Origin: Posidoniimonas corsicana
GTDB lineage: Bacteria > Planctomycetota > Planctomycetia > Pirellulales > Lacipirellulaceae
Reading direction: 5' to 3'
DNA: 64,000 nt
Assembly (NCBI RefSeq): GCF_007859765.1
Contig: NZ_SIHJ01000001.1
Span: forward strand, 682,767-746,766
Positions within the stretch are counted from its first letter, which is position 1. Each line of letters opens with the position of its first letter. A model generated the notes under the pieces. It made no database searches. It saw nothing but the letters and a program-made list of their open reading frames with translations, and was not told the DNA's origin. Positions 534 through 59,265 of the stretch are shown here, piece after piece. Both the position numbers and the translations under genes were made by a program.

Positions 534-815
534 CTAATCCGCTTCATCGGCCCCCTCAAACAAGGCATCATGAAGTTGCTGAGAATCAGCCAGAGTGTCT
601 TTCCAGACATCGCTTGAGTGAGTGATCTCTTTCGCTTCGCCAAGAGAAACATCACAGAATTCTCGAACTGCCTTCACCGACTCTATTTTCGAGAAGCCTT
701 TACTACGCAGGTGGCGTAAGACAGCATCATAACTACCCGTCTGCCGCCAGACTGTTTCGGTATGGCTGTAATCACTTGGCGTTCCCACCGGCTTCACCTT
801 ACTTCGTGAGGTCAA
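534..815 (-). CDS. Small L7/L12-C-terminal-domain-like protein, candidate immunity protein
   Basis: A 93-residue protein if started at the TTG that lies inside the end of the giant gene. An in-frame GTG at 797, one base after the giant gene's stop codon, would give 87 residues and is equally plausible. The central part, KIESVKAVREFCDVSLGEAK, follows the pattern of the ribosomal L7/L12 C-terminal domain (KIxVIKxVRxxTGLGLKEAK). It is acidic at the C-terminus and has no export signal. Overlap or near contact with the toxin-like 3' end of the giant gene suggests translational coupling and a role as cognate immunity protein. The fold suggestion is from motif; the immunity role is inference from position. 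Confidence 0.72.
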   Translation of the reverse strand: MTSRSKVKPVGTPSDYSHTETVWRQTGSYDAVLRHLRSKGFSKIESVKAVREFCDVSLGEAKEITHSSDVWKDTLADSQQLHDALFEGADEAD

Positions 816-12800: not shown

Positions 12801-15800
12801 CGATGTTTTCGTTGTCGTTGCCAATCGCGATGTTGCCCGTCCCGGGGTAGCCGAGCTGAAAGACGACCCTGACATTTTCCAGCGGAGTGTTGGAAACCAC
12901 CTTTCCTTGCAGCCACGTGTTGGCCGATATCCCGTCGGTTCCAGACGCACCGGTATCGCTGATTAGCTCAAACGAGTCGATTGCCAGCTCGCTCTCCACT
13001 TCGATCGTGACGCTCTTCGACACGCGGACAGGCGGGTAGCCCGGCTCGGTAACGCGAAGGTCAAACGTGTGGCTCCCGAGCTGATCACTGCTGGGCGTCC
13101 AGCTAAAGGCGCCGTTGGCGTCGATCGACGCTCCCCGGGGCGCGCCAGGCCCCAAGCTGTAGTGGTAGGTAACGTCTTGCGTCTCGGCGTGTTTGAGGAA
13201 AAGCGATGCGGTCCCTTCTGTGCTTGACCCGGCTTGCACAGTCACAGAGCCGGTCACAGGGACGCCGCTGCCATCCTCCACCACAACGCTAGCGACAGGG
13301 GTGGGCGCGCCAGCGATCTCGAAGACCACCGTCTCGGGCGTGTACAAGACGAATTCATCACCTGGCTTAGTCGCCCAAATGGTGATCGCGTGCATCCCCG
13401 GGGCAAGCGCCCCCGGGCTGCTGAGGGTGATCGTTATCGAGGCGCCGGAGCCACCGATGGTGAAGGCACCGGACCCGAGGGATTCGCTCTCGTACTGAAT
13501 AACGACGCCTGCTGCTGAGCCATCGATAGTCGCCGACGCCGTTAACGTCGGTGAAGCTCCGCTGATGTCCCATCCCCCGTCATTAAGAGCTGAATAAGTG
13601 ACGGTGAGGTCCGCCTCCGCATCGGTTGGAACGGCTCTGTTTTCGAGGTCGGCTAGCCCCGCGCTCTCCAGCTTCAGATCGCCGAACTGCTGCAGCCCCT
13701 CGGTGAGGCTGTCGTCGATCACCGGCGCGGCGGCGCCGGCCCAGCCGAGCGTTTCCAGGTCGAGGGTGTCGTCGCCCGTGGGGTCACTGATCGTGACGGT
13801 CGCGTCGACATTCGAAACGTAGTAGAAGTCACTCCCTGCGCCCCCCTGCAGCAAGTGTTGATCGCTAACCTCGGGGTCTTCGCCTTGCGCGTCGGCAACG
13901 ACTTGGACGAAGAGGTGGTCGTTCCCTTGCCCGCCAGCAAGCGTGTCGACGCCGCCTACTTCAGTGGACGCAACACCACCGCTGAAGAGGTGATCATCGC
14001 CGCCGCCGCCCTCAATACGATTGGCGAACGAGTTGCCAATTAGGACATCCGCGTAAGGCGTGCCGATGATGTTCTCCACCCCGGACACGGTGAAACCAAC
14101 GCTAGCTATGGCAAACACACCAGAGCCGCCTTCCAGCGAGACCGTCGCGCCGCTTGCCGCGGCCGAAAGGTCAATCGTGTCGACGCCGCCGGTGTCGCTG
14201 ATCGTTACCGTATCCGCGCTCGCGTCGGTCACCACGAACACGTCGTCGCCATCACCGCCTACTAGCAAATCGTCGCCGCCGCTGCCGCCGTCGAGCCGGT
14301 CATCACCGGCGCTCCCATAGAGGTCGTCGTCGCCCTCCTCGCCGAACAGCAGGTCGTTGTCCTCCTCGCCCTCTTGAAGAGTTGGCGTAGTGGTCTCATC
14401 GAGCCCGTAAAGGGTGTCGTTGCCCTCGCCGCCCCTGAGCGTGTCGTTTCCGACGCCGCCGTAGAGTTCATCGGCGCCAAGACCGGCGAGCAGCACATCG
14501 TCGCCTTCGCCTCCGTAGAGCAGGTCGTTCGCGTCGCCACCGAGAATCCGGTCGTCACCGGCGCCGCCACGGAGCGTCTGAGGGTAAGCCGAGCCAATGA
14601 TGACGTCGTTGCCGCTGCCGCCGTCCACGACGATCATTTCCGCGTCGGTGGTATTGAGGTTGGCAAACGGCTGATTTTGGCCCGCGACCACCCCGCTGAG
14701 GTCAACACGGGTGTCGTTCGCGCCGCCGACGATACTGATCGCCGTCACCGCCGAAGCCAGGATATTGGTTTTCTTGCTATTGAGGGTGACCCACCACTGG
14801 CCGTCGGACATCGCCGCAGAGAGCACGATCGTCTGGTTCTGCGCAATGGTTTCGTCAATCGTCAGCAGGCCGCCGTCACTGAGCGTCACTCGCTGGGGAA
14901 GCCTGAATCGCTGGCCCCAGATCTCACTGTCATTTCCTCTCGCTGTGAGCAGGAAGTTCCCGGCTGCATCAGAGGTCAGGGATGAGTAAGTGCTGCTCAC
15001 GCCGGGGAGTGGTTTCGCAGTAACGTCGAGCAGGCGTATCCCGGCGGAGTTGAACCAAGTCATCTCATGACCAGAACTACCGCTGTTTGTGTGGTGGTTT
15101 CCGGGCGAGTAGACGATGTTCCCTGATGAGTTCAGATCAAAGTTAGACCCATAGAAGAGCACGCTGTCAGAGCGACTCCACGCCAGCCCAAATCTTCCCT
15201 CTGCATCAACCGCTAACGTTGGTCGATTAATCGTATACGCTTCAGAGAGGTAGTAGTTAGCGGTGAATGGCGACGTGTAGTCGACTTGAGTCGTCTCTAT
15301 GGTCGAGGCATCGATCGTGATCCGACCGCCAATTACACCGCTGGCCGAGACCGGGCTTACGTACAAGAGTGCGTCTGTTGTCGAGGCATTTGTTGTATTC
15401 CCGCCCTGAGATTCGTTGTCCGTGACGTGTAGCTGCTTCGCCCATGCGACTAGCACGCCTCCGTTTCCGTCTGGGGCGATATCGTAAGGGGCAAGCGAGG
15501 TGACTTCAGACTGGGCGCCCGATTCCGGGTCCGGCAGCGGAGCCGCATCATCGACTTTGCTGCCTACAACGACCGCATCACTTGCCGGGGCTCCGCTCGC
15601 CTCAAACTGCTTGATCAGAATGGTCTCGTTGTCGTCCTCCCACAGCACGTAGAAGCCGCCGTCTTCAGTCACTACTGCGCTGCGGCCGGACGTCGCTACG
15701 TAGAGGTCAGCTGAACTTGCAACAGCAACACGCGACGAATTGTCCAGGCTCAATCCGCTGGTCGTGAATCGTCGGAATCGCAACGTGTCCGCGCCTGACT

Positions 15801-18219: not shown

Positions 18220-19029
18220 GGGTCGTCCTTGAGGCTGCAGAGTCAGTGCACGCGTCGGCAAGTGAAAAGTGTGCTTCCGTGCTCACGCGAATTTGACAGA
18301 CACTGATGCGGCGTGCAACTGTTTTCTCGTTTACTCAAGGTCAAGTCGCGGCCAAGAACAGATGTGGCTACATCAGTTCTACATACAGCGCTAATCTAAG
18401 CTTCTGCATAACCTCCAAGACAAGAGTTGAGCCAGATCGATCCAAGGCGATTCCTGAGGAACCATTAGGCGTAGCAACACGTGATTGCAATCGGAAGCCA
18501 ATCGCAAGCATTGAAGCCATTCGGACATCACGTTGTTCTGAAAAGCCGTTTGGCATCCGCGACATCCGGCCATGCCAGCCCGACCGACAGCCACCCAGCC
18601 CTAACGCCCTCTTCCGCCGGGGGCACGGTCGCCGTAACTCCAGGAAGAACCTATGGTTGTGGTTATTGAGAAGTGTCGGCTAGCCGCATTTCCGACAAGT
18701 GGTCAGACGTTCATATCTTGGCCAGCCGGTTGGGCACCCCTCTGAACGCCCGATCTGATGGATTTTCTGCTGTTTTTCTGGGCAAGCGGGCCACGTGGGC
18801 CATCGCAAGAACGCCCGCCATCAGAGTAGGTGGACAGCTGGGTCTTGGGAATGCCGCCGAGAAGTCGCCTGAGCGCGCGTACAGCGCGCCGCAGCGCCGG
18901 TTGGGCAGATGGCCCACGGCCGCGCCCGGAGCGCGCGAGACGGCCTCTGAGGGCCCCTGAGCGCGCCCTGGCGGTTCCTGGGCGCCGTGTGAGCAAACTT
19001 GGCGCGAGAGAAGCCCGCGCCGCCAACAG
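18220..19029. other. Gene-free stretch between giant gene and mobile-element genes
   Basis: About 800 bases with no open frame that looks protein-like on either strand. The part near 18220-18350 must hold the promoter of the giant gene, but I could not pick out clear -10 and -35 boxes. The part near 18830-19000 is very GC-rich and contains three copies of GAGCGCGC (18871, 18929, 18959) and several short self-complementary segments such as GCGCGC-GTACA-GCGCGC. This might be structured DNA or RNA, or an origin-like region, but that is speculation. Confidence 0.5.
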
Positions 19030-46482: not shown

Positions 46483-48084
46483 ATGAAGGACACACGCCCC
46501 CGAACCGTATTGTTAGCAGCATTGACGCTGCTTGCGGTGGTTCTGTCGGCCGCGCCCGCCCGGGCTTACACGCCCGAGAGCCCTGAAGTAAAGGCCCTGA
46601 TCAGTAAGGGCCTGGAGTATCTGGATAAGAACAGCGACTCGCGGCTCGGCGGCAAGTGCGTCATCGCCTTGGCCTACGTCAAGTCGGACCAGCCCGATCA
46701 CCCGCGGGTGAAGGAAGCCGTTCAGGCGTGCCGCCAGTCGATGCAGGCGGGCGACCAGGGCAACAGCATCACGATCTACAGCTGCGGCATGGCTATTATC
46801 TTCCTGTGCGAGTACGACGCACGGGGCCAGGCGGACATGATCCGCCACTACCTCAACGCCCTGGCCGCCCGCCAGAAGGCCCACGGCGCCTGGGGCTACA
46901 CCAACGAGCAGATCGGCGACACCTCGCAAACCCAATACGGCGCGCTCGCCCTGTGGGAAGCGCACCGCAACGGCTACCGGCCCGACGAGGACACTGCCCG
47001 CCGGATGGCCGACTGGCTGATCCGCACGCAGGACCCAGAGGGCGGCTGGGCCTACAAGGGCGAGCTGGCGCCGCTCGGCGAGCGCGAGCCGCAGGACAAG
47101 TCGGAGATGACCATCTCGATCGGCGCGGCCGCCATGGGCAGCGTGCTGATCGCGGCCGACCTATTCGGCCTGCTAGAGCCGGGGGCCGAGACCAACACGG
47201 CCGAAGATGTGCCCGACGCGCTCCGCGAAGCCGGCGAACGCGAACGCCGCAAAGCGCCGCCACTGAGCGTGGGTGACCTGCCGCGGAATGAGTTGTTCGA
47301 GACCATCCGCGACGGCGACGCCTACATGACCAAGAACTACGAGGTGGCGATCCGCCGCTACCAGCTCTACTACATGTACTCGCTTGAGCGGTACAAGAGC
47401 TTCTTCGGACAGCTGACCGGCGACGCTCCCGACGAGCCGGAGTGGTACAACAAGGGCTACGAGTGGCTCAAGCAGAACCAGGCGCCGGAGGGCTCCTGGA
47501 AGGGGCAGTGCGGCGACAGCGTCGACACGGCGTTCGCCATCCTGTTCCTGCAGCGTTCGACCCTCAAGAGCATCCGCCGGGGCCTGGGCGTCGGCACGCT
47601 GGTCAGCGGGCGAGGGCTTCCGGCCCGGCTGGACTCAATCAAGCTCAGCCGCGGGCAGATTGTCGCCCAGCAGGCGGCCACCCAGGTGGACGACCTGATC
47701 AACATGCTGAGCGACGAGGAGGGCGCCGCGTTGGACGCCATGGTCAACGACCCCACGGCGCTGGTCGGCGAGATCAATGATCAGAACGGCCGCCGGTTCG
47801 AGCAGATCGCCCGCGGCGGCGCGCCCGCCGCCCGCGTGCTGGCGGTCAGGGCCCTGGGCCGCAGCGGCGACCTGGACTACGCCCCCACGCTGATCTTCGC
47901 CCTGACCGACCCGGACAAGCGGGTGGTCCGCGAGGCCCGCGACGGCCTGCGGTTCGTCAGCCGCCGCTTCGAGGGCTACGGGCTGCCCGACAATTACAAT
48001 GACCAGCAGCTGCGCGACGTGATCGAGCGGTGGAAGAGCTGGTACCTGTCGGTCCGCCCCGACGCCGCGATCAACTTGAACTAA
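46483..48084 (+). CDS. Exported alpha/alpha-toroid (prenyltransferase/squalene-cyclase repeat) protein
   Basis: A 533-residue exported protein. Signal peptide at residues 1-28 (VLLAALTLLAVVLSA, then ARA). The body has the alpha/alpha toroid repeats seen in prenyltransferases and squalene cyclases: a QW-like RTQDPEGGWAYKGE (about 185-200) and NQAPEGSWKGQCGDSVDTAF (about 335-355). The catalytic DxDD motif of squalene cyclases is not seen, so an enzyme role is doubtful. The C-terminal part has HEAT-like repeats (VLAVRALGRSGDLDYAPTLI). It is first in a gene run with ExbB/ExbD-type proteins and is likely a periplasmic scaffold or binding protein. Confidence 0.85.
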   Translation: MKDTRPRTVLLAALTLLAVVLSAAPARAYTPESPEVKALISKGLEYLDKNSDSRLGGKCVIALAYVKSDQPDHPRVKEAVQACRQSMQAGDQGNSITIYSCGMAIIFLCEYDARGQADMIRHYLNALAARQKAHGAWGYTNEQIGDTSQTQYGALALWEAHRNGYRPDEDTARRMADWLIRTQDPEGGWAYKGELAPLGEREPQDKSEMTISIGAAAMGSVLIAADLFGLLEPGAETNTAEDVPDALREAGERERRKAPPLSVGDLPRNELFETIRDGDAYMTKNYEVAIRRYQLYYMYSLERYKSFFGQLTGDAPDEPEWYNKGYEWLKQNQAPEGSWKGQCGDSVDTAFAILFLQRSTLKSIRRGLGVGTLVSGRGLPARLDSIKLSRGQIVAQQAATQVDDLINMLSDEEGAALDAMVNDPTALVGEINDQNGRRFEQIARGGAPAARVLAVRALGRSGDLDYAPTLIFALTDPDKRVVREARDGLRFVSRRFEGYGLPDNYNDQQLRDVIERWKSWYLSVRPDAAINLN

Positions 48085-48097
48085 CCCCCGGGCGTCG

Positions 48098-48976
48098 ATG
48101 CCTGCCGCCGACCACAACCCGAACGACCAGGGCTATCGCCTGAGCGTCAACTCGTACGACCGCGGGTCGAGCCTGTTGATCGCCCTGTTGGTGATGGTCG
48201 GGGTGGGGGTGGGGGCGCTGGTGATCATCTGGTACGCCAACCACCTGAACCGCCGCAACGTGCCGCCGTTCCTGCTGCCGGTGAACCCCGCCAGCCGGCC
48301 GGCCGACGCGGCGATGGGTCTGAAAGAAGACATCGAGCCGCCCGGCATCGAGGACGCCCCTGAGCTGACCGAGCCGCAGCTGCAGGACACGCTGACTGCG
48401 CTATCGGACCTGTCGACCAAGTCGGCCCTGCTGGCGGACGACGCGGTCGATTCCGATTCCGAGGTCGGCAAGGGAAGCGGGTTCGGCGACTCTCGGCAGG
48501 CGGGCGTGGGAGGAGACGGGCCCCCGGTCAATGAGCCGCAGCGGGAGATCCGGTTCGAACCCGCCGACCGCAACGAGTACGCCCGCTTCCTCGACTTTTG
48601 GAAGGTAGAACTCGCCGTGCTCGACCAGCGCAACAACACGGTGTACTACGCGTCCAATTTCACCGCCGGCAGCCCGACGACGCGCAGCGCCGACCCCGCC
48701 AAGAACCCAGAGAACCGTGTGAGCTTCCTCTCCAACGGCACCGCGTTCGAGGGGCTCGACCGGGCGCTCGTGCAGCGGGCGGGGATTGCGAACCGGGGGA
48801 ACATCATCATTCAGTTCTGGCCGAACGAGTCCGCGGGGTACCTGCTGGGGCTGGAGAACCAGGCGATGCAGAAGGCCGGCAAGACGTCGCTCGACCAGGT
48901 TCAGCGGAGCGTGTTCCGCGTGGTGCGGGACGGCAACGAGTTTACCTGGGAGCTGGAAGAGCAGCTCTACTACTAA
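48098..48976 (+). CDS. Membrane-anchored protein of unknown function in ExbB/ExbD cluster
   Basis: A 292-residue protein with a short cytosolic N-terminus, one membrane helix (residues about 25-46, LLIALLVMVGVGVGALVIIW), a Pro- and acid-rich linker and a C-terminal globular domain (ARFLDFWKVELAVLDQRNNT; IIIQFWPNESAGYLLGLENQ). The layout recalls TonB or TolA, which link ExbB/ExbD-type motors to the outer membrane, but no TonB C-terminal motif is visible. It starts 13 bases after the toroid gene and precedes ExbB, so the role is likely to be as a partner of the motor (inference). Confidence 0.75.
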   Translation: MPAADHNPNDQGYRLSVNSYDRGSSLLIALLVMVGVGVGALVIIWYANHLNRRNVPPFLLPVNPASRPADAAMGLKEDIEPPGIEDAPELTEPQLQDTLTALSDLSTKSALLADDAVDSDSEVGKGSGFGDSRQAGVGGDGPPVNEPQREIRFEPADRNEYARFLDFWKVELAVLDQRNNTVYYASNFTAGSPTTRSADPAKNPENRVSFLSNGTAFEGLDRALVQRAGIANRGNIIIQFWPNESAGYLLGLENQAMQKAGKTSLDQVQRSVFRVVRDGNEFTWELEEQLYY

Positions 48977-49031
48977 CACATGACGGTCCGCCTGGCGGGC
49001 AAGACACCTACCGGAAACCGAGAAACCAGCA

Positions 49032-49664
49032 ATGGCGATCCTGTTCACCCTGATTGGCTACGTGGTCTACACCGCGATGGCGCTTTTGGCGTTGTGGGGG
49101 GCGTTCTGCCTGATCCTTACTTGGCGGCGTGTCAGCCAGACCCGCTTCCGCAACGAGTCGGAACAGAACGAGTTCTTCGAGGAGCTCGAGCCGCCGCTCA
49201 ACGGGGGCAAGTTCGATGTCGCGGCCGAGCTGTGCGACGACGACCGCCGCGCCATGCCCCAGCTGGCGCTGTACGCCATCGAGAACCGCAAGGTGGGCAT
49301 GAACCGCCTGCAGCGGCGGCTGGTCGAGCGGTTCCAGCAGGACGTGCTGGCGGACATCGAGCACCGGCTGAGCTGGGTCAGCACGGTCAGCAAGAGCGCG
49401 CCGATGATCGGGCTGTTCGGCACGGTTATCGGCATGATGGGCGCGTTCAGCAACCTCAGCTCCGGCGCCCAGGTCGACACCGGCAAGATGGCCGAGGACA
49501 TCATGTTCGCGCTGATCACGACCGCCATGGGACTCGCGATCGCGGTGCCGCTGGTGCTGGGCAGCGCGAGCATCAACATCCAGATCCGCAAGATGGAGGA
49601 CCTGGTTTCCGTTGGCCTCGCCCGCCTGATCGACGACATGCGGTCCGTGGTCGGACGCGGCTAG
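49032..49664 (+). CDS. MotA/TolQ/ExbB proton channel family protein
   Basis: A 210-residue inner-membrane protein with three hydrophobic segments (about residues 2-24, 112-140 and 155-178). The family motif is in STVSKSAPMIGLFGTVIGMM and in the following GKMAEDIMFALITTAMGLAIA. Such proteins form the stator pentamer that uses the proton gradient to drive envelope machines. It is directly followed by two ExbD-type genes, as in exbBD and tolQR units. Start ATG with GAGAAACC upstream. Confidence 0.93.
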   Translation: MAILFTLIGYVVYTAMALLALWGAFCLILTWRRVSQTRFRNESEQNEFFEELEPPLNGGKFDVAAELCDDDRRAMPQLALYAIENRKVGMNRLQRRLVERFQQDVLADIEHRLSWVSTVSKSAPMIGLFGTVIGMMGAFSNLSSGAQVDTGKMAEDIMFALITTAMGLAIAVPLVLGSASINIQIRKMEDLVSVGLARLIDDMRSVVGRG

Positions 49665-49705
49665 CGCGACCCAAACTTTCAATCCACCACCGCCCCCGGG
49701 GCCCG

Positions 49706-50206
49706 ATGAGCACTGCCACCCCGACAGAACCGCAGGAAGAGCTGGACGACGTCGCCGCCGGGGCGTCGCTGCGCCGCAAGCGTAAAGACGTCGACGACGA
49801 GATGGACATCACGCCGATGATCGACATCACGTTCCTGCTGCTGATCTTTTTCCTGGTCGCGTCGACGCCTGACAAGCAGACATCGATCGAGCTGCCCGAG
49901 GCCAAGAGCGGCAGCCCCGTCAGCCAGCTCACCTCCACGGTGTTCACCATCGGCGACGGCGGACTGGACACCGCCCCGGTCTACCAGGCCGATGGAAAGA
50001 TTGAATCCGCGCGGCTCCCCGACGACCCGGCCCAGCGGCGGGACGAGGTCAAGGACGCCGTTGAGGCGGGCTTCGCCGAGACCAAGACCGACGTCGTGAT
50101 CAAGGGCGACAAGAGCATCCGTTATCGTGACGTGGACGGCCTGATCAAGGCGATCTCGCAGGTCGAGGGCGTGAAGATCCACCTGGCGATCCTGGAAGTG
50201 CAGTAA
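49706..50206 (+). CDS. ExbD/TolR family protein (first copy)
   Basis: A 166-residue protein starting MSTATPTEPQEELDDV. After a charged N-terminus the motif DITPMIDITFLLLIFFLVAS gives the membrane helix with its conserved proton-binding Asp; a periplasmic domain follows, ending LIKAISQVEGVKIHLAILEV. Longer readings of the frame run back through the ExbB gene and are rejected. It starts 41 bases after ExbB and is followed by a second, related gene. Confidence 0.93.
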   Translation: MSTATPTEPQEELDDVAAGASLRRKRKDVDDEMDITPMIDITFLLLIFFLVASTPDKQTSIELPEAKSGSPVSQLTSTVFTIGDGGLDTAPVYQADGKIESARLPDDPAQRRDEVKDAVEAGFAETKTDVVIKGDKSIRYRDVDGLIKAISQVEGVKIHLAILEVQ

Positions 50207-50245
50207 CGCCCCATCGCGTTGACAAACTAGTAGCGAGCCGACGGC

Positions 50246-50749
50246 ATGAGTGACATCGAAGACGACCTGGAACACATGGTCGAAGAAGGGGAGGAGAAGG
50301 CGAAGCGCATCGACGACGAGCTGGACATGACCCCGATGGTCGACGTCACGTTCCTGCTCTTGATTTTCTTCATGATTACCGCGGCATTCGCCCTGCAGAA
50401 GGCGCTGGAGGTGCCTCCGGTGAACGAAGAGCAGGCGGCCGCCACGCAGACCATCGATGACCTGGAGAAGGACTCGATCGTGATCCGCATCGATGAGGAC
50501 AACGTCTACTGGGTCGGCAGCCCGCTGTGGACCGACGAACAGAAGGCGCCCAGCGTGCAGGAGATGCGGAGCAAGGTCCGCGAGGCCCGCAACGGCGAGG
50601 GAGGCCGGATGGGCAAGGGGCCGACCAAGATGCTGGTGCAGGCGCACTCGGAGTCGCTGTACGAGTTTGCGATCGCCGCCCTGGACGCCGGCGCCGACGT
50701 GCAGATGCCCGAGGTCCGCATCATGATGTACGAAGAGGGCGACCTCTGA
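50246..50749 (+). CDS. ExbD/TolR family protein (second copy)
   Basis: A 167-residue ExbD-type protein. The N-terminus is acidic, then LDMTPMVDVTFLLLIFFMIT gives the membrane helix with the conserved Asp. The periplasmic part includes KMLVQAHSESLYEFAIAALD and ends in EVRIMMYEEGDL. Two different ExbD copies beside one ExbB are common in planctomycetes and other phyla; they may form a heterodimer in the channel. Confidence 0.93.
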   Translation: MSDIEDDLEHMVEEGEEKAKRIDDELDMTPMVDVTFLLLIFFMITAAFALQKALEVPPVNEEQAAATQTIDDLEKDSIVIRIDEDNVYWVGSPLWTDEQKAPSVQEMRSKVREARNGEGGRMGKGPTKMLVQAHSESLYEFAIAALDAGADVQMPEVRIMMYEEGDL

Positions 50750-50793
50750 CCCGCACCCAACGCCTCGCGTAACGCAAGAAGCGATAACCGGAT

Positions 50794-53700
50794 ATGGACA
50801 CAGAAAGACTACTCAAAGAGCTGGCCAAGCGTGACGTCGTCTCGCGGTCGGTGCTCAAGAAGCTCGAGCAGAAGCTCGCGGACAAGAGCGACGTGCCGTC
50901 GCCCCGCGCGGTGGCCAAGTTCCTGGTGGACAAGGGCCACCTCACCGCCGCCCAGGCCAAACGCGCCCTCAAGGCGATCCTCACGCCCGAGGAGAGCGCC
51001 ATCCTCGAGAGCCAGCGGCTCGACGACGACGATGACAGCGCGGCGGCCGCTTCGGGCGGGCTGCCGGACCTCCCCAGCCTGAGCGGCGTCGGCATGTCCG
51101 CCTACGGCGATGACGGCGGCGGCCTGACGGGCGGGGGCCTGACCGAGACGATCACCGACGGGGACAGCGGCGACAAGAAGTCCAAGAGCAAGAAAAAGAA
51201 GGGGAAGAAGAAGGCCAAGGGCCAGAACGAGTGGGACTCGCCGCTGATCCTGATCGGGACCGGCGGCCTGGTGCTGATGCTGTTGATCGGCGGCGCCATC
51301 CTCTACCTGCTCGGCTACGAGTCTGCCGAAGAACGCTTCAAGAACGCCCAAGAGGCCTACGACCAGGGGTCCTACCCCCAGGCGATCGCCGACTTCGAGG
51401 AGTACCTCGAAAAACACCCCAACGGCGAGGACGCGCCGCTGGCGCGTGTGCGGCTGGGAACCGCGCGGATCCGCCTGGTGACCGACGTCAAACGCGACTT
51501 TGAGGACGCGCTGCAGGTCGCCAAGGAAGAGACCGACATCATCGAGGACCAGGAGGCCTACAAGGAGGCCCAGGCGGAACTGGCTGCGCTGCTGCCGGAG
51601 ATCGCCGAGCAGCTCTCGCAGGAGGCCGATCAAGCGACCACCATCGACCAGATGCAGAAGTACGTCGGGCTGACCGAGCAGGCGCTGGTGCTCTGCCAGA
51701 ACGCGAAGCTCATCCCGGGCAACCTGCGCGACAAGGGACAGCTCAACGCGGTGCGGGAGGTGCTCGATCGGATCAGGCTGCGGCAGACGGCCCTTGAGAG
51801 CCTCGAGTCCACGCTCGGGGCGATGAGCCAGGCCACCGCCGACGGCGACCCCAAGCAGGCGTACGCCGCCCACACCGCGTTCATCAAGCAGTACCCGCAG
51901 CTCGCACAGGACGAACGCGTCGTAGAAGCGGTGGCCGCCGCCGCCGAAGCCGAAGAGTCTTTGGTGAAGCTCGTCCAAGAGCCGCAGGCCGGCCTCGACG
52001 CCGAGGCCGAGTCGCCGGTGATCGCCGAGCTGGCGGTCGCCACGCCCCGCGTTGAGGCCGCCGCGCCCGCCACAGGGGTGGCGGTGCTGCGTCTAGCAGG
52101 CGGGTTGTACGGCGTTTCGGCAGCCGACGGCGCGCTCCTGTGGCGCAGGTACGTCGGCGCCGCGCCAAACCTTGGCGCGCCGCTGCGGATCGGCGACGAC
52201 GTGGTGGCGGTCGACTCCCGCCGGCAGGAGCTGGTGCGATTGCGGGCGGCGGACGGCGAGCTCGTGTGGCGCACGCCGCTAGGCGATGATCTCTCCCAGC
52301 CGGCGTTGGTCGAAGGCCGCCTGCTCACGCCCGGCGCGTCCGGAAAGCTCTTCGTGGTGGATGCCGAGTCGGGCGACTCGGCCGGATACGTCCAGTTCGC
52401 ACAGCCGCTCCGCACTCCCCCCGCGTACGACGCCGAGAACCAGGCCATCTACCTGGCGGGCGATCACTCCAGCCTATACAGCCTGTCTGCCAAGGACCTG
52501 TCCTGCCTGGGCGTGTTCTACCTGGGGCACGCCAAGGGCAGCATCGCCACGGCGCCAATCGCCCTGCAGGGCCGTGTTCTCGTGCTCGAGAACGACGGCG
52601 CCGAGACCTCCACCCTTCACGTGCTGGGGGTCGACGAGCGGCGATCGATCGACCGGCGGCTGCAGACGCAGCGGATCAGCGGCCTCGTCACCGAGCCGCC
52701 GATCACCTTCGCCCGCCGCGTGGCGGTCGCGACCGACACCGGGCACGTCGATGTGTTCGAAGTCTCGGCCGAGGACGACGCACAGCCAATCGTGCTGCTC
52801 GCCTCTCGTCAACCGACGCGAATGCGCCGCGGGCCACGCTACGCGGGCGTGCACGACGGGGAGCTCTGGCTCGCCGAGGTGGGCCTGTTCCGCTACTCCA
52901 TCTCGCCCAGCGGCAACCGACTGCCGGTGCGGGACGTCGCGGACCCGTTCCGCCGTGACACATTCGTCTCCCCGCTCATCATCCAGGACGGCGCGCTGAT
53001 TCACGCCCGCAAACGCCCCGGGCGTCCTGGCGTGTCGATCGGCGCCACGGACCTGCGGAGCGGCAAGTCTTACTGGGAGACCGATCTCGCGGCGCCGCCG
53101 GCGGGAGCTCCGGTCTCGCGGGCCGGATCCAACGGGCTGCTGCACGCGACCGCGGCCGGAAGCGTGTTCCGCATCGATTCAGCGCCCGCCCGCTTCGCCG
53201 TCGCCACGCCGGCGAAATCCGACGCGACCGACGCCGCACCAGTCTTCGAGTTGGCTAGCGGTCAATCCGACGGGTCGGCCGTCTACTGGGACGCCACCGA
53301 TGGCCGCGCAGCTCACGCCGGCCGCAACGGCAGCCCTAGCTACGCGCTCCCCGGCCAGGTGGCGTGCGAGCCCGCCGCGATCGGCGCCGGCTGGGTGGTG
53401 CCGCTCGCCATGGGGCAGGTCCATTGCCTCAGCGGCGAAACCGGCCAGCCACTGGCCGCCCCGTATCAACCGATCCTCAAGCCGGGAGAGCGGGTCCACT
53501 GGCAGACGCCGGGCGTCGACGGCCGGCGGATCGTGATCGCCGACGACCGTTCGATCACCGCGCTCGAGCTGGTCGATGACGGCGCCGCCCGGCTAGAAGA
53601 AATCCACCGCGTTGAGGCCGCCGGGCCCGACGCCGCGCAGGGCCGCATCGCGGTCGCCGGCGGGCTGGCGTTTGTTCCGCGGGCCAACGGCCGGGTCACC

Positions 53701-54087
53701 GCCCTTGCAACCGACTCGCTCGAGGAGGCCGGCGTGGTCGACCCCGGGGCGGCCGTGTTGTGGGGCCCGTACGCGGTAGACGATCAGAGCGTGCTGGTCG
53801 CGACCGCGGGTGATGAACTCCTCTGCATCCGCGCCACGGACCCCAGCCAGCCGGCCTGGCGGACCACGGTCACGGCGTCCGACCTGGTCGGTGCGCCCGC
53901 TGCTAGCGACGGCGCCGCAATCCTGGCGACGCGTTCCGGGTCGTTGACGCGGCTCAGTCTTGCCGACGGCGCCTCAACCGGAGGCCTCGACGTCGGCCAG
54001 CGGCTCGCCGCCGGTCCGGCGCTATTCGGCGGCGACGTCGCGCTCGCCACGCCGGATGGCGCCCTGGTTATTGTCCCACAGCCGTGA
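50794..54087 (+). CDS. Membrane-anchored PQQ-type beta-propeller protein with TPR segment
   Basis: A 1097-residue protein. Residues 1-70 are helical and charged (LAKRDVVSRSVLKKLEQKLA), similar to the N-terminal part of planctomycete kinases. A Lys-rich stretch (KKSKSKKKKGKKKAKG) precedes one membrane helix (about 149-178). A TPR-like segment (FKNAQEAYDQGSYPQAIADF) follows, and from about residue 400 a beta-propeller with PQQ-type repeats (ADGALLWRRYVG; ADGELVWRTPLG; DDRSITALELVDDGAARL). The propeller faces the periplasm and probably binds proteins. It starts 44 bases after ExbD and ends just before the solute-binding fusion gene. Confidence 0.88.
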   Translation: MDTERLLKELAKRDVVSRSVLKKLEQKLADKSDVPSPRAVAKFLVDKGHLTAAQAKRALKAILTPEESAILESQRLDDDDDSAAAASGGLPDLPSLSGVGMSAYGDDGGGLTGGGLTETITDGDSGDKKSKSKKKKGKKKAKGQNEWDSPLILIGTGGLVLMLLIGGAILYLLGYESAEERFKNAQEAYDQGSYPQAIADFEEYLEKHPNGEDAPLARVRLGTARIRLVTDVKRDFEDALQVAKEETDIIEDQEAYKEAQAELAALLPEIAEQLSQEADQATTIDQMQKYVGLTEQALVLCQNAKLIPGNLRDKGQLNAVREVLDRIRLRQTALESLESTLGAMSQATADGDPKQAYAAHTAFIKQYPQLAQDERVVEAVAAAAEAEESLVKLVQEPQAGLDAEAESPVIAELAVATPRVEAAAPATGVAVLRLAGGLYGVSAADGALLWRRYVGAAPNLGAPLRIGDDVVAVDSRRQELVRLRAADGELVWRTPLGDDLSQPALVEGRLLTPGASGKLFVVDAESGDSAGYVQFAQPLRTPPAYDAENQAIYLAGDHSSLYSLSAKDLSCLGVFYLGHAKGSIATAPIALQGRVLVLENDGAETSTLHVLGVDERRSIDRRLQTQRISGLVTEPPITFARRVAVATDTGHVDVFEVSAEDDAQPIVLLASRQPTRMRRGPRYAGVHDGELWLAEVGLFRYSISPSGNRLPVRDVADPFRRDTFVSPLIIQDGALIHARKRPGRPGVSIGATDLRSGKSYWETDLAAPPAGAPVSRAGSNGLLHATAAGSVFRIDSAPARFAVATPAKSDATDAAPVFELASGQSDGSAVYWDATDGRAAHAGRNGSPSYALPGQVACEPAAIGAGWVVPLAMGQVHCLSGETGQPLAAPYQPILKPGERVHWQTPGVDGRRIVIADDRSITALELVDDGAARLEEIHRVEAAGPDAAQGRIAVAGGLAFVPRANGRVTALATDSLEEAGVVDPGAAVLWGPYAVDDQSVLVATAGDELLCIRATDPSQPAWRTTVTASDLVGAPAASDGAAILATRSGSLTRLSLADGASTGGLDVGQRLAAGPALFGGDVALATPDGALVIVPQP

Positions 54088-54094
54088 GTCCGCT

Positions 54095-56353
54095 TTGCAC
54101 CTCCGCACCGCCAACCTGACGCTTATCGCCTGCATTCTGTTGCTCGCCGCCGCCCCCGCGGCGGTCGCACAGGACGATGCGCAGCGGGTGGTCGACCGCC
54201 GCCCGTTCGACCAGGTCGTCCTCAAGCAATCAGCAGGCGGCAAAACACTGGAGGTCGCTCCACTGGAACTCCCAGGCCGGCGAGTCCCCCGCCCCTTCCC
54301 GGGAGGGCGGCTGGTGGTCCGGCTGCTCGACCAACCGACCAAGGACTACGAGATCTCCTGGTCCGATATCCAGGACGTGCGGCTCTACGAGCAGATGCTG
54401 ATCTCCGAGGCCAGCCAGCTGACCAAGCAGAAGAAGTTCAATGACGCGTTCGACTACTTCGCGTTCCTGAACAAGAACTACAAGAACCTGCCAGGGCTAG
54501 AGCAGGCGACCGCCCAGTACCTGCAGGCGAACGCGCTCGACGCGTTCCAGAAGAAGGAGTACGACCAGGCCCTCGCCATCCTGCTGAGCCTGTATGACCG
54601 CAACCCTCAGGCCGGCGGCATCGGCCGCGCGGTCGACACGGTCGCCAACAGGATCATCCAGGACTACGTGGGCGCAAACAACCTGCGTGCAGCGCGCGAC
54701 GTGCTCGACGTGGTGGAGAAGCAGTTCCGCGACGCCGACCTGCAGGTCGTCTCGAGCTGGCGTGCAAGGTTCAAGCAGAACGCCACCGATCGGGTCCGCG
54801 AGGGCGCCGGGTCGCTCCGTGATGGCGACTACCGGCAGGCCCGTGACGCCGCCTTCGACGCGCTCGCGATCCTGCCCGATCACCCGCTCGCCAACGAGCT
54901 GCTGCGCAGGGTGACCGAGAAGTACCCCACGATGTCGGTCGGCGTCCGCACCATGGCGCCGCGAGACCTAGAACCGCGGATCGACTCAACCGCATCGCTG
55001 CGGGCGGGCCGGGTCGCGCGGCGGACGATAACAGAGCTGAGCGGCTACAGCCCTGAGGGCGGGGTCTACACCTGCCCGGTGGGCCGGGTCTCGCTGGACG
55101 ACAGCGGCGCCGCGCTGCACTTCGGGTTCACGGAGGAGCGGGCCAAGCAGACACCGTACGAGCTGGCCCGCTGGCTGCTGCGGGCGTCTACGCCCGGTGG
55201 AAGCCAGGCCGTGGCGCCTCTGCCTTCGTTGGTCTCGTCGGTGGCGGTAGATCAGCTCACGGGCTCGCTCACGCTGGAACTCCAGCGCCCGCACGTGAGG
55301 CCGGACGCGATGCTGAGGCTGTCGTCGCTGCGAGAGGCCGGGATCGCGCCGCCACGCGTCTCATTCACCGTTGGCGAATCCACCGACGGCTTGAGCCAGT
55401 TTATCTGCAGCGACCCCGACGCACCGATCGCCGAACTCGAAGAGCGGTACTTGGCCGACGACGGCGAAGCGCTAACCGCGTTGTCGCGAGGCGACGTCAA
55501 GCTGATCGACCGGCTGATGCCGTGGCAGCTGGCGGCGGTCCGCCGAGATCGGTCGCTGGCCGTTGGCAAGTACGAGCTGCCCACGGTCCACGTCCTGATC
55601 CCCACTCACCGCAACCCGCTGCTCGACGCCCGCCCGCTGCGGCGGGCGATGCTGTACGCAATCAATCGCGAGAAGATCCTCAACGAGCTGATCCTGGGAG
55701 GCCGCTCGGAGCTCGGGTTCCAGGTGGTCAGCGGCCCGTTCCCCGCCGGCGTGTCGCTCAGCGACCCAATCCGCTACGGCTACAACGACGGCGTCGAGCC
55801 CCGCCCCTACGACCCCCGCCTGGGAGCGCTGCTCTCCGCGCTGTCGTGGTCGCAGGCGCAGCGGGCCGAGCACGGCAAGGAAGACCCGGCCGACCGCCCG
55901 TTCCCCACGCTCCGCCTAGCGCACAACAGCGACCCGGTGGCGCGCACCGCCTGCCAGTCGATCCAGATGCAGCTCAAGGCGGCCGGTGTGCCCATCGAGG
56001 TGGTGGAACTCAGCGAGGTAGAGCTGCTGTCGGACGAGCCAGACTTTGACCTACGCTACGCAGAGCTGGCGGTGTGGGAGCCGCTGGTCGACGCGGTGAC
56101 TCTGCTGGGTCCCGAGGGCGTCGCCGGACGCTGCAGCGATCCCATGGTGGCGGCGCTTAAACGCCTCGACGACGCCCGCAACTGGGTGGAGGTCGGCGAG
56201 GCGTTGCGGGGCGTGCACGCCCTGGCGGCCGGCGACCTGCCGGTGCTGCCGCTGTGGCAGACGGTCAATTTCTACGCCTACCGCCGCGACCTGAAGGGCC
56301 CAACCGAGAGCTGTGTGTCGCTCTACCAAACCTTGGAGGGCTGGCAGCTATGA
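54095..56353 (+). CDS. TPR protein fused to a family 5 solute-binding-like domain, exported
   Basis: A 752-residue protein if started at the TTG at 54095, which is followed by a signal peptide (LTLIACILLLAAAPAAVAQ). Upstream readings run into the preceding gene. Residues about 100-280 form TPR-like helices (FDYFAFLNKNYKNLPGLEQA; EKKEYDQALAILL-type repeats). Residues about 282-752 resemble family 5 peptide/nickel-binding proteins (LDARPLRRAMLYAINREKIL; ACQSIQMQLKAAGVPIEVVE; LRYAELAVWEPLVDAVTLLG). No ABC permease or ATPase is present, so import is unlikely to be its function. Start codon uncertain. Confidence 0.8.
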   Translation: MHLRTANLTLIACILLLAAAPAAVAQDDAQRVVDRRPFDQVVLKQSAGGKTLEVAPLELPGRRVPRPFPGGRLVVRLLDQPTKDYEISWSDIQDVRLYEQMLISEASQLTKQKKFNDAFDYFAFLNKNYKNLPGLEQATAQYLQANALDAFQKKEYDQALAILLSLYDRNPQAGGIGRAVDTVANRIIQDYVGANNLRAARDVLDVVEKQFRDADLQVVSSWRARFKQNATDRVREGAGSLRDGDYRQARDAAFDALAILPDHPLANELLRRVTEKYPTMSVGVRTMAPRDLEPRIDSTASLRAGRVARRTITELSGYSPEGGVYTCPVGRVSLDDSGAALHFGFTEERAKQTPYELARWLLRASTPGGSQAVAPLPSLVSSVAVDQLTGSLTLELQRPHVRPDAMLRLSSLREAGIAPPRVSFTVGESTDGLSQFICSDPDAPIAELEERYLADDGEALTALSRGDVKLIDRLMPWQLAAVRRDRSLAVGKYELPTVHVLIPTHRNPLLDARPLRRAMLYAINREKILNELILGGRSELGFQVVSGPFPAGVSLSDPIRYGYNDGVEPRPYDPRLGALLSALSWSQAQRAEHGKEDPADRPFPTLRLAHNSDPVARTACQSIQMQLKAAGVPIEVVELSEVELLSDEPDFDLRYAELAVWEPLVDAVTLLGPEGVAGRCSDPMVAALKRLDDARNWVEVGEALRGVHALAAGDLPVLPLWQTVNFYAYRRDLKGPTESCVSLYQTLEGWQL

Positions 56354-57789
56354 CACGGACTCAACGCGTAATCCAGCAAGCACTCCACCTGGCGTCGGTT
56401 GCGGCGTTCGTCGCGACGCTTCTCGCCAGTAGCCACGCCACGGCTCAGAGCAGCACGTGGCGTCTCTCCCCCTACGAGATTCAAATGCTTGTAGCGGTGG
56501 AGTCGGTGACCGCCGGCGACCAAGAGGTTGCCGCCGACGTCGACACCCACGTCAACGAGCGCGCCGACGCGTCGATCGGCGCCCTCTGGGACATGCACAT
56601 CGCGGCGGCCTCGCCAGCGGAGACCCGGCTGGTCGCGGACGCGATCGACGGACAGGCCGCCGCCCGCGAGGCGCTGGTTGAAGGCATCGAGGGCGCCGAC
56701 AAGCTGCTAGTCGCCCAGATCCGCGAGACGCCCCGCGGCGTCTGGGCCCGTGTCGCCGAGTACGACGCCATCCTCATGCGTTGGGGACGACCGGTCGAGG
56801 CCGAGGTCGCGACCCTCTCCCAGGCGCCGGAGGCCGTATTCCGCCTAGCGTGCCAAGCGTTCTCGCCACTGGCCGAGTTTAGCATCTCCCAAGGCGACCC
56901 CAACCTGATCGAGCTAGCGTTCCGCGGCGACCAGCTGCCGCAGCGCCGCGGGGCGCCCGACTGGATCCGCCCCGACGACATCCTGCAGCCGGTGCTCCGG
57001 CAGCTCGACCGGGACGGCGCCGCCACGGCCGAGGGGATCCGTGACGTCCCGTGGACCTACCTGCTGGTGGGCGAGGCCGGCGACAACCCGACCGCCAAGT
57101 TTGTCAGCCACACGCGACGCCCGCTTCCCTCACGCCGACGGGGTCGGGTCGAACGGCTCGCCGTCCGGCTGCCCCGCAGGTCGGCGCCGATCACGCTGCG
57201 TGCGCACGCGAAGGCGGACCCTGCACGAGCCCTGGTCGGCTACCAAGTGTTCATCCAGGACGGTGAGGATGCGGAGCGAGAGCCCGCCGGCGCCACCGGG
57301 CCCGATGGTCGGCTGGTGATCGAGCCGGGCGAGGCGCCCATCCTCATGGCTTACATCAAGAGCGGGTCGCAGCTGGTCGCCAAGGTGCCGGTGGCGCCCG
57401 GCTCAGTAGACGAGATGGACGTTCCGCTCCTCGACGAGACCACGCGGCTCAACGCCGAGGCAAAGCTGGGCATCCTCCGCGAGGACCTGATCGACCTGGT
57501 CGCGCAGCGCAAAATCCTGATTGCGCGCATCGACGCGGCGATCGAGGCCAAGAACTACGACCAGGCCGTCCGCCTAATCACCGACCTCGAGCGGCTGCCC
57601 GCCCGGGCGATCTTCGACCGCCAGCTGCGCAACCTCGAGCAGTCCAGCACGTCGGACGTGCCCATGATCCAGAAGCGGATCGACCGGATCTTCGCCGACA
57701 CCAGAAGCGTGCTCGCGGCGTTCCTGAATCCGAGCGAGATCCAGGGCGTAAAAAGCCGCCTGGCCAACGCGCGGAAGAACGAGGGCTGA
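56350..57789 (+). CDS. Exported protein of unknown function
   Basis: A 479-residue protein. The ATG at 56350 overlaps the stop of the preceding gene (ATGA). Signal peptide in residues 1-33 (LASVAAFVATLLASSHATAQ). The body has no motif I recognise; a middle segment looks like a beta sandwich (VFIQDGEDAEREPAGATGPD, GEAPILMAYIKSG) and the C-terminal 100 residues are helical (LIARIDAAIEAKNYDQAVRL). It is the last gene in this run and meets the oppositely directed kinase gene 22 bases later. Role unknown; coupled translation suggests it belongs to the same complex. Confidence 0.8.
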   Translation: MTRTQRVIQQALHLASVAAFVATLLASSHATAQSSTWRLSPYEIQMLVAVESVTAGDQEVAADVDTHVNERADASIGALWDMHIAAASPAETRLVADAIDGQAAAREALVEGIEGADKLLVAQIRETPRGVWARVAEYDAILMRWGRPVEAEVATLSQAPEAVFRLACQAFSPLAEFSISQGDPNLIELAFRGDQLPQRRGAPDWIRPDDILQPVLRQLDRDGAATAEGIRDVPWTYLLVGEAGDNPTAKFVSHTRRPLPSRRRGRVERLAVRLPRRSAPITLRAHAKADPARALVGYQVFIQDGEDAEREPAGATGPDGRLVIEPGEAPILMAYIKSGSQLVAKVPVAPGSVDEMDVPLLDETTRLNAEAKLGILREDLIDLVAQRKILIARIDAAIEAKNYDQAVRLITDLERLPARAIFDRQLRNLEQSSTSDVPMIQKRIDRIFADTRSVLAAFLNPSEIQGVKSRLANARKNEG

Positions 57790-57810: not shown

Positions 57811-59265
57811 CTAGCCGAGGATCTTCAGCAGCCCCGCGGCGGCGATGCCCAGTGTGCCAAGCAGCGCGAGCCCCGCCACGGCCCACACCGCCACGTCCAG
57901 CGGCTGGGCGGGTGGCGGCGGCGCCAACGGCGGATGGATCGGCGTGGGGGTCTCGCTCGCGATCGGAACCTCGCCCGTGGTGCTGAGGGCGCCGCTGGTC
58001 TGTTGGGCGTCGGGCGTCATGTCGCTCGCCGGGTCGCCGGGCTCTGAGTACGGGTGCGAGTCGGAATCGGTAAGGGTCTCGCTGATGAGGTTCGTCGCCG
58101 CGTGCGCGCCGGACCGGTCGGTGCGGCCCCGCTCGCTCATCACCCGGTCGTAAGCCCGGATGCTCTCGCACACCCGCTCGCGCGACCCCTCCTGCAGCAG
58201 CGGCCGGAGCAGTTCGATGGCGACCGAAGCGGACGGCACCCGGGTCTCGGGGTTCTTGTCCATCAGCAGCGCGATCACCTCGACCACCGTGTCGGGCAGG
58301 TCATGCTGGATGCTCTGCGGGGGGAGCGGCGGCTCGCGCAGGCACCGCCGCATCTTTTCCACCGCATTGCCGCCGGGGTAGGGCACCTTGCCGGTCACCG
58401 CGTAGTAGAGCGTGCAGCCCAGCGAGTAGAGGTCGCTCACCGGGATGATCCGCGTGGGGTCGGAGATCGACTCCGGCGCAAGGTAGTCACACGTGCCCAC
58501 CACCTTCTTCCGTCCGCCGGGGTCGGTCGGCACCTCGTGGTTCAGGTACCACGCCAACCCGAGGTCGGCGAGCTTGACGTCCCCATCCGGGGTGACCAGC
58601 AGGTTGCCGGGCTTCACATCCCGGTGGACGATGCCACGGCGGTGGGCGAACTCCAACCCCTGCGCCGCCTGCAGCACCACCCACGCCGCGGCGTCGGGCG
58701 GCAGCGGCCCGGTGCGGCGGACAAGCCGCCGGAGGTCGACGCCCGGCACGAACTCGGTAACCAGAAAGTAGGTGTCCCCATCGCGGTCGGCGTACGACAC
58801 CCTCACCAGGTTCGGGTGGTTGAGCTGGGCCTGGGCGCGAATCTCTTGCCTGAAGCTGGCGATCGCGTCGGGGCGGCTCTTGCTCCGCGGCAGCACCTTA
58901 ATCGCCTCGACGCGCCCGAGCAGCTGATGCTCGCCCTTGAACACGTGGCCCATGCCGCCCTTGGCGACCGTATCGATGATCGCGTACTGGCCTAGCGTGA
59001 ATTTGGTGCGTCCCTCGCGCAGCTGGTCGACCTGCCACTCGTTGAGGAGTTCGAGCTCAACCAGCTTGGCCGCCAACGCCTGGTCGCCTACCGAGCCGTT
59101 CAGCTCCGCGCGGGCCTCGGCAATCTGCGCAGGGGGAACCAGCCCGCTGGCCAGCAGGGCTTGCTCAAACGGTGTCTGGCCTAGCGGCTTCGACAAGAAC
59201 GCCTCAGTGGTTAACCTAGTGCGGGGCCAGCCCTGTGCGAGGCTCCCCCGGCAGAAACAACGCAC
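57811..59265 (-). CDS. Membrane-anchored serine/threonine protein kinase
   Basis: A 484-residue kinase. N-terminal helical segment (ALLASGLVPPAQIAEARAEL) as in many planctomycete kinases, then the kinase domain: glycine loop AKGGMG (101-106), ATP lysine in EAIKVLP (K123), catalytic HRDVKPGN (Asp 216), DLG (234-236) in place of DFG, and GTCDYLAPES. A Pro/Ser/Thr-rich linker follows, then a C-terminal membrane helix (about 462-482), with the kinase in the cytosol. The GTG start at 59265 is uncertain; a TTG at 59196, preceded by GAGG, would remove 23 odd residues. An AT-rich stretch near 59291-59300 may hold the promoter. Confidence 0.92.
   Translation of the reverse strand: MRCFCRGSLAQGWPRTRLTTEAFLSKPLGQTPFEQALLASGLVPPAQIAEARAELNGSVGDQALAAKLVELELLNEWQVDQLREGRTKFTLGQYAIIDTVAKGGMGHVFKGEHQLLGRVEAIKVLPRSKSRPDAIASFRQEIRAQAQLNHPNLVRVSYADRDGDTYFLVTEFVPGVDLRRLVRRTGPLPPDAAAWVVLQAAQGLEFAHRRGIVHRDVKPGNLLVTPDGDVKLADLGLAWYLNHEVPTDPGGRKKVVGTCDYLAPESISDPTRIIPVSDLYSLGCTLYYAVTGKVPYPGGNAVEKMRRCLREPPLPPQSIQHDLPDTVVEVIALLMDKNPETRVPSASVAIELLRPLLQEGSRERVCESIRAYDRVMSERGRTDRSGAHAATNLISETLTDSDSHPYSEPGDPASDMTPDAQQTSGALSTTGEVPIASETPTPIHPPLAPPPPAQPLDVAVWAVAGLALLGTLGIAAAGLLKILG

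Follow-up and report, generated by a model that had tools for sequence, protein, structure and literature searches.

Eight co-directional genes of Posidoniimonas corsicana (g1 to g8; Table 1) were found to form a real and ancient set, complete and in identical order at 40 loci fetched from class Planctomycetia (a few loci are possibly one genome fetched twice, and contig ends cut some of the loci that were fetched). Because the same eight genes stand in the same order at these 40 loci, the arrangement is far beyond chance. The cluster may well be, at a little under an even chance, a Planctomycetia-wide, Tol-like machine that transmits force across the envelope, a function that we infer.

The genes lie in a window of 64,000 nucleotides, the whole stretch of DNA that was analysed, which sits within the ~6.8 Mb genome. 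The initial annotation of the window had delimited eight co-directional genes here and named domains in most of them; the gene count, direction and coordinates held, and the assignments for g1, g3, g4, g5, g6 and g7 were supported by Pfam. Gaps between the frames are short or the frames overlap, the g7 reading frame overlapping the 3' end of g6. The g7 start is probably the ATG at 54056 and the g8 start probably the ATG at 56350. As the same annotation had supposed, no account of the set as one unit was found in the literature searched on ExbB, TolQ, TonB and planctomycetes; exb and tol went unmentioned in the main text of the P. limnophila essential-gene paper (PMC10632474). Elsewhere in the window lies a giant ORF (5820 aa), whose product has RTX calcium-binding repeats as well as a carboxypeptidase-regulatory-like domain.

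Table 1. Coordinates of the cluster genes and other features (window positions, or locus and position within it).
Feature	Position	Strand	Description	Pfam match
g1	46483..48084	+	Exported alpha/alpha-toroid (squalene-cyclase-C-like fold), HEAT-like repeat at C-terminus; signal peptide ends ...APARA	
g2	48098..48976	+	Inner-membrane, one TM (19-50), ~100-residue disordered linker, 145-residue alpha/beta C-terminal domain	
g3	49032..49664	+	ExbB/TolQ-type motor subunit	MotA_ExbB 8.4e-24
g4	49706..50206	+	ExbD/TolR-type subunit 1	ExbD 2.6e-17
g5	50246..50749	+	ExbD/TolR-type subunit 2	ExbD 1.2e-19
g6	50794..54087	+	Inner-membrane-anchored TPR + BamB-like beta-propeller	
g7	54056..56353	+	Exported; TPR-like N-terminal half + family 5 solute-binding domain	
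g8	56350..57789	+	Exported, 479 residues; TolB-N/FlgT-like, beta, Ig-like and helical-bundle parts	
Cluster, g1-g8	46483-57789	+	Eight co-directional ORFs	
Giant ORF	799-18261	-	RTX repeats, carboxypeptidase-regulatory-like domain	
Protein kinase	57811-59265	-	Ser/Thr kinase, C-terminal TM, convergent with cluster end	
Toroid-ended protein, home genome	L121:4514-6454	-	TonB-like, adjoins ExbB/ExbD genes	
Toroid-ended protein, home genome	L125:3244-5910	-	TonB-like, adjoins ExbB/ExbD genes	
TM-linker-toroid protein, Verrucomicrobiota/Kiritimatiellota	L221:11506-13122			
TM-linker-toroid protein, Verrucomicrobiota/Kiritimatiellota	L229:11440-13146			
TM-linker-toroid protein, Verrucomicrobiota/Kiritimatiellota	L237:11548-13158			
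TM-linker-toroid protein, Verrucomicrobiota/Kiritimatiellota	L240:11224-12792			
Tandem g2 copies	L042:14018-15028 and 13049-13936			

Distribution of the gene set

Collections were scanned for carriers with ExbB as query. ExbB orthologues of the cluster scored at least 262 bits, save one cut by a contig end, and unrelated ExbBs of Verrucomicrobiota and Chryseobacterium scored at most 133 bits; g2, g6, g7 and g8 were not found beside the latter. Among the carriers identified by name were Stieleria tagensis, Rhodopirellula europaea, Rubripirellula, Mariniblastus and Thermoguttaceae, and the class was taken to be Planctomycetia because these belong there. Beyond the complete loci, g2-g8 stood in order at 15 further fetched loci.

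In genomes of the same family g2 was present in 38 of 43. Among 20 family loci the exact eight-gene order was kept in 16, the motor lay between g1 and g2 in one, motor genes were locally absent in two, and one carried a second g2 copy. Tandem second copies of g2 were seen in a few genomes (Table 1; also L200, L215 and L098). Differing neighbours of ExbB/ExbD in close relatives, the outcome that would have spoken against the initial annotation, were looked for and not seen, and a random neighbourhood was rejected on this conservation. Across the phylum 391 genomes were drawn, 61 of them of the same class; g2 was found in 60/61 class genomes and in none outside the class, and g8 in 61/61 with three weak matches outside; in the class draw g8 was found in 76/79 genomes. 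The class-wide distribution is mostly single-copy.

Motor, transducer candidates and a TolB-like fold

The motor genes (g3-g5) were assigned from conserved residues as well as domains. Thr131 and Thr164 of g3 were invariant (40/40 orthologues), as were the pore aspartates Asp40 of g4 (40/40) and Asp33 of g5 (40/40). With MotA_ExbB and ExbD domains, channel Thr and pore Asp, the three belong to the ExbB/ExbD (TolQ/TolR) 5:2 motors. Eight MotA/ExbB homologues are present in the home genome, the cluster motor being one among several. In R. baltica an exbB/exbD pair, possibly of another locus, was induced under salt (PMC2754498).

TonB, Pal and TolB genes are absent from g1-g8, as first reported for this stretch, and Pfam gave no OmpA match in the cluster (three OmpA-domain proteins lie elsewhere in the home genome, one adjoining flagellar genes). 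TonB_C was matched nowhere in the home genome and in 14/79 class genomes, always away from the cluster; the one Plug domain of the home genome lies outside the cluster, at C1:3.64 Mb. TonB was previously found in only four planctomycete genomes among those examined (PMC3422733). A classic Ton or Tol operon was ruled out, TonB_C, Plug and TolB_N being absent from the cluster. A Zorya-like anti-phage motor was rejected for want of such a PADLOC match, and a phage origin for want of PHROG matches for g1, g2, g6 and g8.

No Pfam match, vWA included, and no NCBIfam match was obtained for g2, and no credible match to the PDB by sequence profile. In its model a TM helix leads into a disordered linker, which contains a short helix at 95-103, and residues 147-292 form a confidently modelled alpha/beta domain (pLDDT ~90 or more over most of it); this domain, searched within the full-length model only, had no clear fold match in the PDB by Foldseek or VIA. 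TolA and TonB couple to the motor via the SHLS His (PMC12204202). Histidine was found at g2 TM positions 19-47 in 0/50 sequences. The label "TonB-like" given to g2 in the initial annotation holds for its TonB/TolA-like topology only; the motor-binding His is missing and the C-terminal domain has no clear PDB match.

The toroid g1 matched Pfam SQHop_cyclase_C at 8.3e-7, above cut-off, and HEAT_2 at 2.9e-4, below cut-off; N-terminal signal sequences are conserved among its orthologues. An HMM of toroid domains, taken from the C-termini of proteins that adjoin other ExbB/ExbD genes, recovered g1 orthologues with E-values from 1e-3 to 1e-12. Two such proteins in the home genome (L121, L125) have a TM with S-x3-H, a proline-rich linker and the toroid as C-terminus. 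At four loci of Verrucomicrobiota/Kiritimatiellota a TM-linker-toroid protein without S-x3-H follows ExbB-ExbD-ExbD. Judged by sequence, g1 appears to be an end domain of this type, encoded as a stand-alone exported protein beside g2, and it may do the same work as the fused toroid ends. In the available part of the paper on new transducers, vWA ends are described and toroids are not (PMC12204202).

The initial annotation had left g8 as an exported unknown. By sequence it remains an orphan (no Pfam/NCBIfam match above cut-off and no credible PDB match by sequence profile), but its N-terminal domain has a TolB-like predicted fold. The AlphaFold2 model was confident throughout (mean pLDDT 94.2) and divides into an alpha/beta domain (41-174), a beta domain (~187-275), an Ig-like domain (278-362) and a helical bundle (362-479). 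The top Foldseek match of residues 41-174 was TolB 7mx5 (E 3.6e-7, probability 1.00), and VIA aligned g8 with TolB 1c5k over 114 residues at 3.0 A (Z 8.2). Residues 37-275 aligned loosely, at 9.0 A, with flagellar ring chain 8z5n, which we take to be FlgT. LpoB, GNA1162 and CT253 also matched the TolB-N-like domain; several unrelated envelope proteins share this fold, which is therefore not specific to Tol, and the likeness of g8 may be generic. TolB_N (PF04052) was found in 0/79 class genomes, with E. coli, Caulobacter and Bacteroides positive as controls, and in the home genome it was not found even at E 10. According to earlier work (PMC8871954), Tol-Pal is largely reduced in Planctomycetes.

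Remaining partners and competing functions

The g7 product has a conserved signal peptide and no conserved lipobox. SBP_bac_5 was matched at 3.8e-15 over residues 490-697, a partial match, and the N-terminal half gave weak TPR/YbgF matches. It may bind peptides, possibly wall peptides. A serious rival, unlikely yet with an appreciable chance, is an uptake machine, as the initial annotation had suggested, in which the motor energises the entry of macromolecules or oligopeptides across the outer membrane, with g7 as periplasmic binding protein and g1, g6 and g8 as a trans-periplasmic conduit. The family 5 peptide-binding domain of g7 speaks for it, as does the home genome's single Plug-domain receptor with no TonB_C. 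In Gemmata, dextran accumulated in the periplasm and its uptake, by a mechanism that the authors called unclear, was abolished by CCCP (PMC5394234). However, the conserved eight-gene set includes neither an outer-membrane barrel nor a receptor or ABC permease, the g7 match is partial, almost every class genome sampled has g8 and g2, and family f8, which we infer to be Gemmataceae, the dextran-uptake group, keeps only diverged, dispersed relatives of the cluster genes.

One ExbB with two ExbDs resembles the AglRQS arrangement, and TPR proteins accompany Agl-Glt as they do the cluster. A surface, adhesion or gliding machine like Myxococcus AglRQS-Glt, moving or retracting a holdfast or pili, is nevertheless improbable: no adhesin, barrel or regulator is part of the conserved set, and gliding is rare in class Planctomycetia, while the cluster is class-wide.

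A PQQ-type propeller had been assigned to g6; a propeller was confirmed (PQQ_2, 3.5e-22), with the correction that BamB-like propellers are closest (TIGR03300 BamB, 9.5e-21). TPRs were also matched, with BamD and YbgF TPR models at ~1e-6, and PDB sequence matches were to BamB and a kinase propeller. The protein is laid out as a small cytoplasmic N-terminal domain, a Lys-rich segment, a TM near 151-169 (by hydropathy), periplasmic TPRs and the propeller. By eye, the N-terminal ~70 residues of the kinase downstream of the cluster resemble the small N-terminal domain of g6. In g6 a BamD/YbgF-like TPR is fused to a BamB-like propeller, which would suit a motor that powers a BamB/BamD-like periplasmic scaffold in support of outer-membrane protein or lipoprotein assembly, or of protein export; with both modules generic in exported proteins and neither BamA nor a secretin among the eight, we consider this quite improbable.

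Where the cluster was broken, the motor genes relocated as a block and the other parts persisted. Seven loci had the order g1-g2-g6-g7-g8 with the motor missing locally, and in the four genomes checked (G028, G029, G330 and G393) ExbB-ExbD-ExbD was kept together at another site. In G228 and G326 g1-g2 lay apart from g3-g8, and in G264 g2 alone lay apart from the remaining genes. Joint function is argued for because the parts persist although unlinked. In G310 (L095) and G378 (L097) g1, g2 and g6-g8 were present with only a distant ExbB/ExbD/ExbD elsewhere; g6 is short (453 aa) in the latter. That these are unrelated envelope genes without shared function is very improbable: g1, the motor or g6-g8 are apart in some genomes, but order is kept in the 40 loci, the motor trio stays together and other parts persist when split.

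A proposed Tol-like force machine

The Tol-like reading was favoured because the parts persist when split, the ion-path residues are invariant and the toroid is linked to other ExbB/ExbD genes. Such a role would account for the spread of the set through the class, for the lack of TolB, for the fold of g8 and for the TPR and propeller parts. Against it count the lack of Pal/OmpA or any known wall-binding domain in the cluster, a TolB-N-like fold in g8 that may be generic, a g2 without the SHLS His, a solute-binding domain that is not a Tol part, and the two genomes (G310, G378) with only a distant motor.

In the proposed mechanism, five TolQ/ExbB subunits would surround two ExbD subunits, perhaps a g4-g5 heterodimer, and be driven by inward ion flow, as the conserved residues suggest. 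From their sequences, g2 (linker and globular domain) and g6 (TPR-propeller) are predicted to be single-TM proteins reaching into the periplasm, where the exported g1, g7 and g8 would join them. Movement of the motor might pass to g2, perhaps with g1, and on to g8, in which the TolB-N-like domain would take TolB's position; g6 and g7 could serve as scaffold and ligand sensor. The most likely job would be to keep the inner membrane, wall and outer membrane connected, or to remodel their connection, as Tol-Pal does elsewhere, possibly during budding. The class that carries the set is also the phylum's budding class; the correlation is weak because it concerns a single clade. It is possible, if doubtful, that Tol-Pal was replaced in Planctomycetia by a new eight-protein machine, with the transducer split into a g2 membrane rod and a g1 toroid, TolB reduced to its N-terminal fold in g8, and the outer membrane shaped during FtsZ-less budding.

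Exported proteins of kinds foreign to Tol had been claimed for the cluster, a claim that was not upheld: g6 with its TPR and propeller, and g8 with its TolB-N-like and Ig-like parts, contain modules as in TolB, CpoB and PorE. With Tol-Pal (TolQ-TolR-TolA-TolB-Pal-CpoB) the cluster shares a TolQ/TolR-type motor, a TM-linker-globular protein, TPR and propeller modules and the TolB-N-like fold of g8. It differs in having two ExbD/TolR genes, no Pal, and extra toroid and solute-binding proteins, in a TolB-N-like fold that is unfused to a propeller and invisible by sequence, and in the missing SHLS His of g2. Ton (ExbB-ExbD-TonB) likewise has an ExbB/ExbD motor beside a TM-linker-globular protein, whereas the cluster lacks a TonB_C domain or receptor and TonB of the class, where present, lies elsewhere.

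The PVC vWA force transducers (PMC12204202) resemble the cluster in one tolQ with two tolR, a TPR neighbour, a TM-linker-globular protein and a PVC host; g2, by contrast, gave no vWA family match by Pfam and lacks the SHLS His, and the five-protein exported or anchored set is unreported there. PorE of Bacteroidetes type IX secretion, described there as a fusion of CpoB, TolB, carboxypeptidase-like and Pal parts, similarly re-assorts Tol periplasmic folds (TPR, propeller, Ig/carboxypeptidase-regulatory-like). It is a single outer-membrane lipoprotein that includes a wall-binding domain (PMC12204202), whereas the cluster spreads such folds over g6 and g8 without one. In FlgT of the Vibrio flagellar T ring a beta domain comes after a TolB-N-like domain, as in g8, but the alignment is loose and the cluster has no flagellar genes.

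In PVC bacteria, alpha/alpha toroids are candidate end domains for transducers linked to ExbB/ExbD. Planctomycetia bud without FtsZ, have no recognisable TolB and take up macromolecules in an energy-dependent manner by an unexplained route. For these bacteria, a near-universal ion-driven machine would provide a short, concrete gene list for how the outer membrane is energised.
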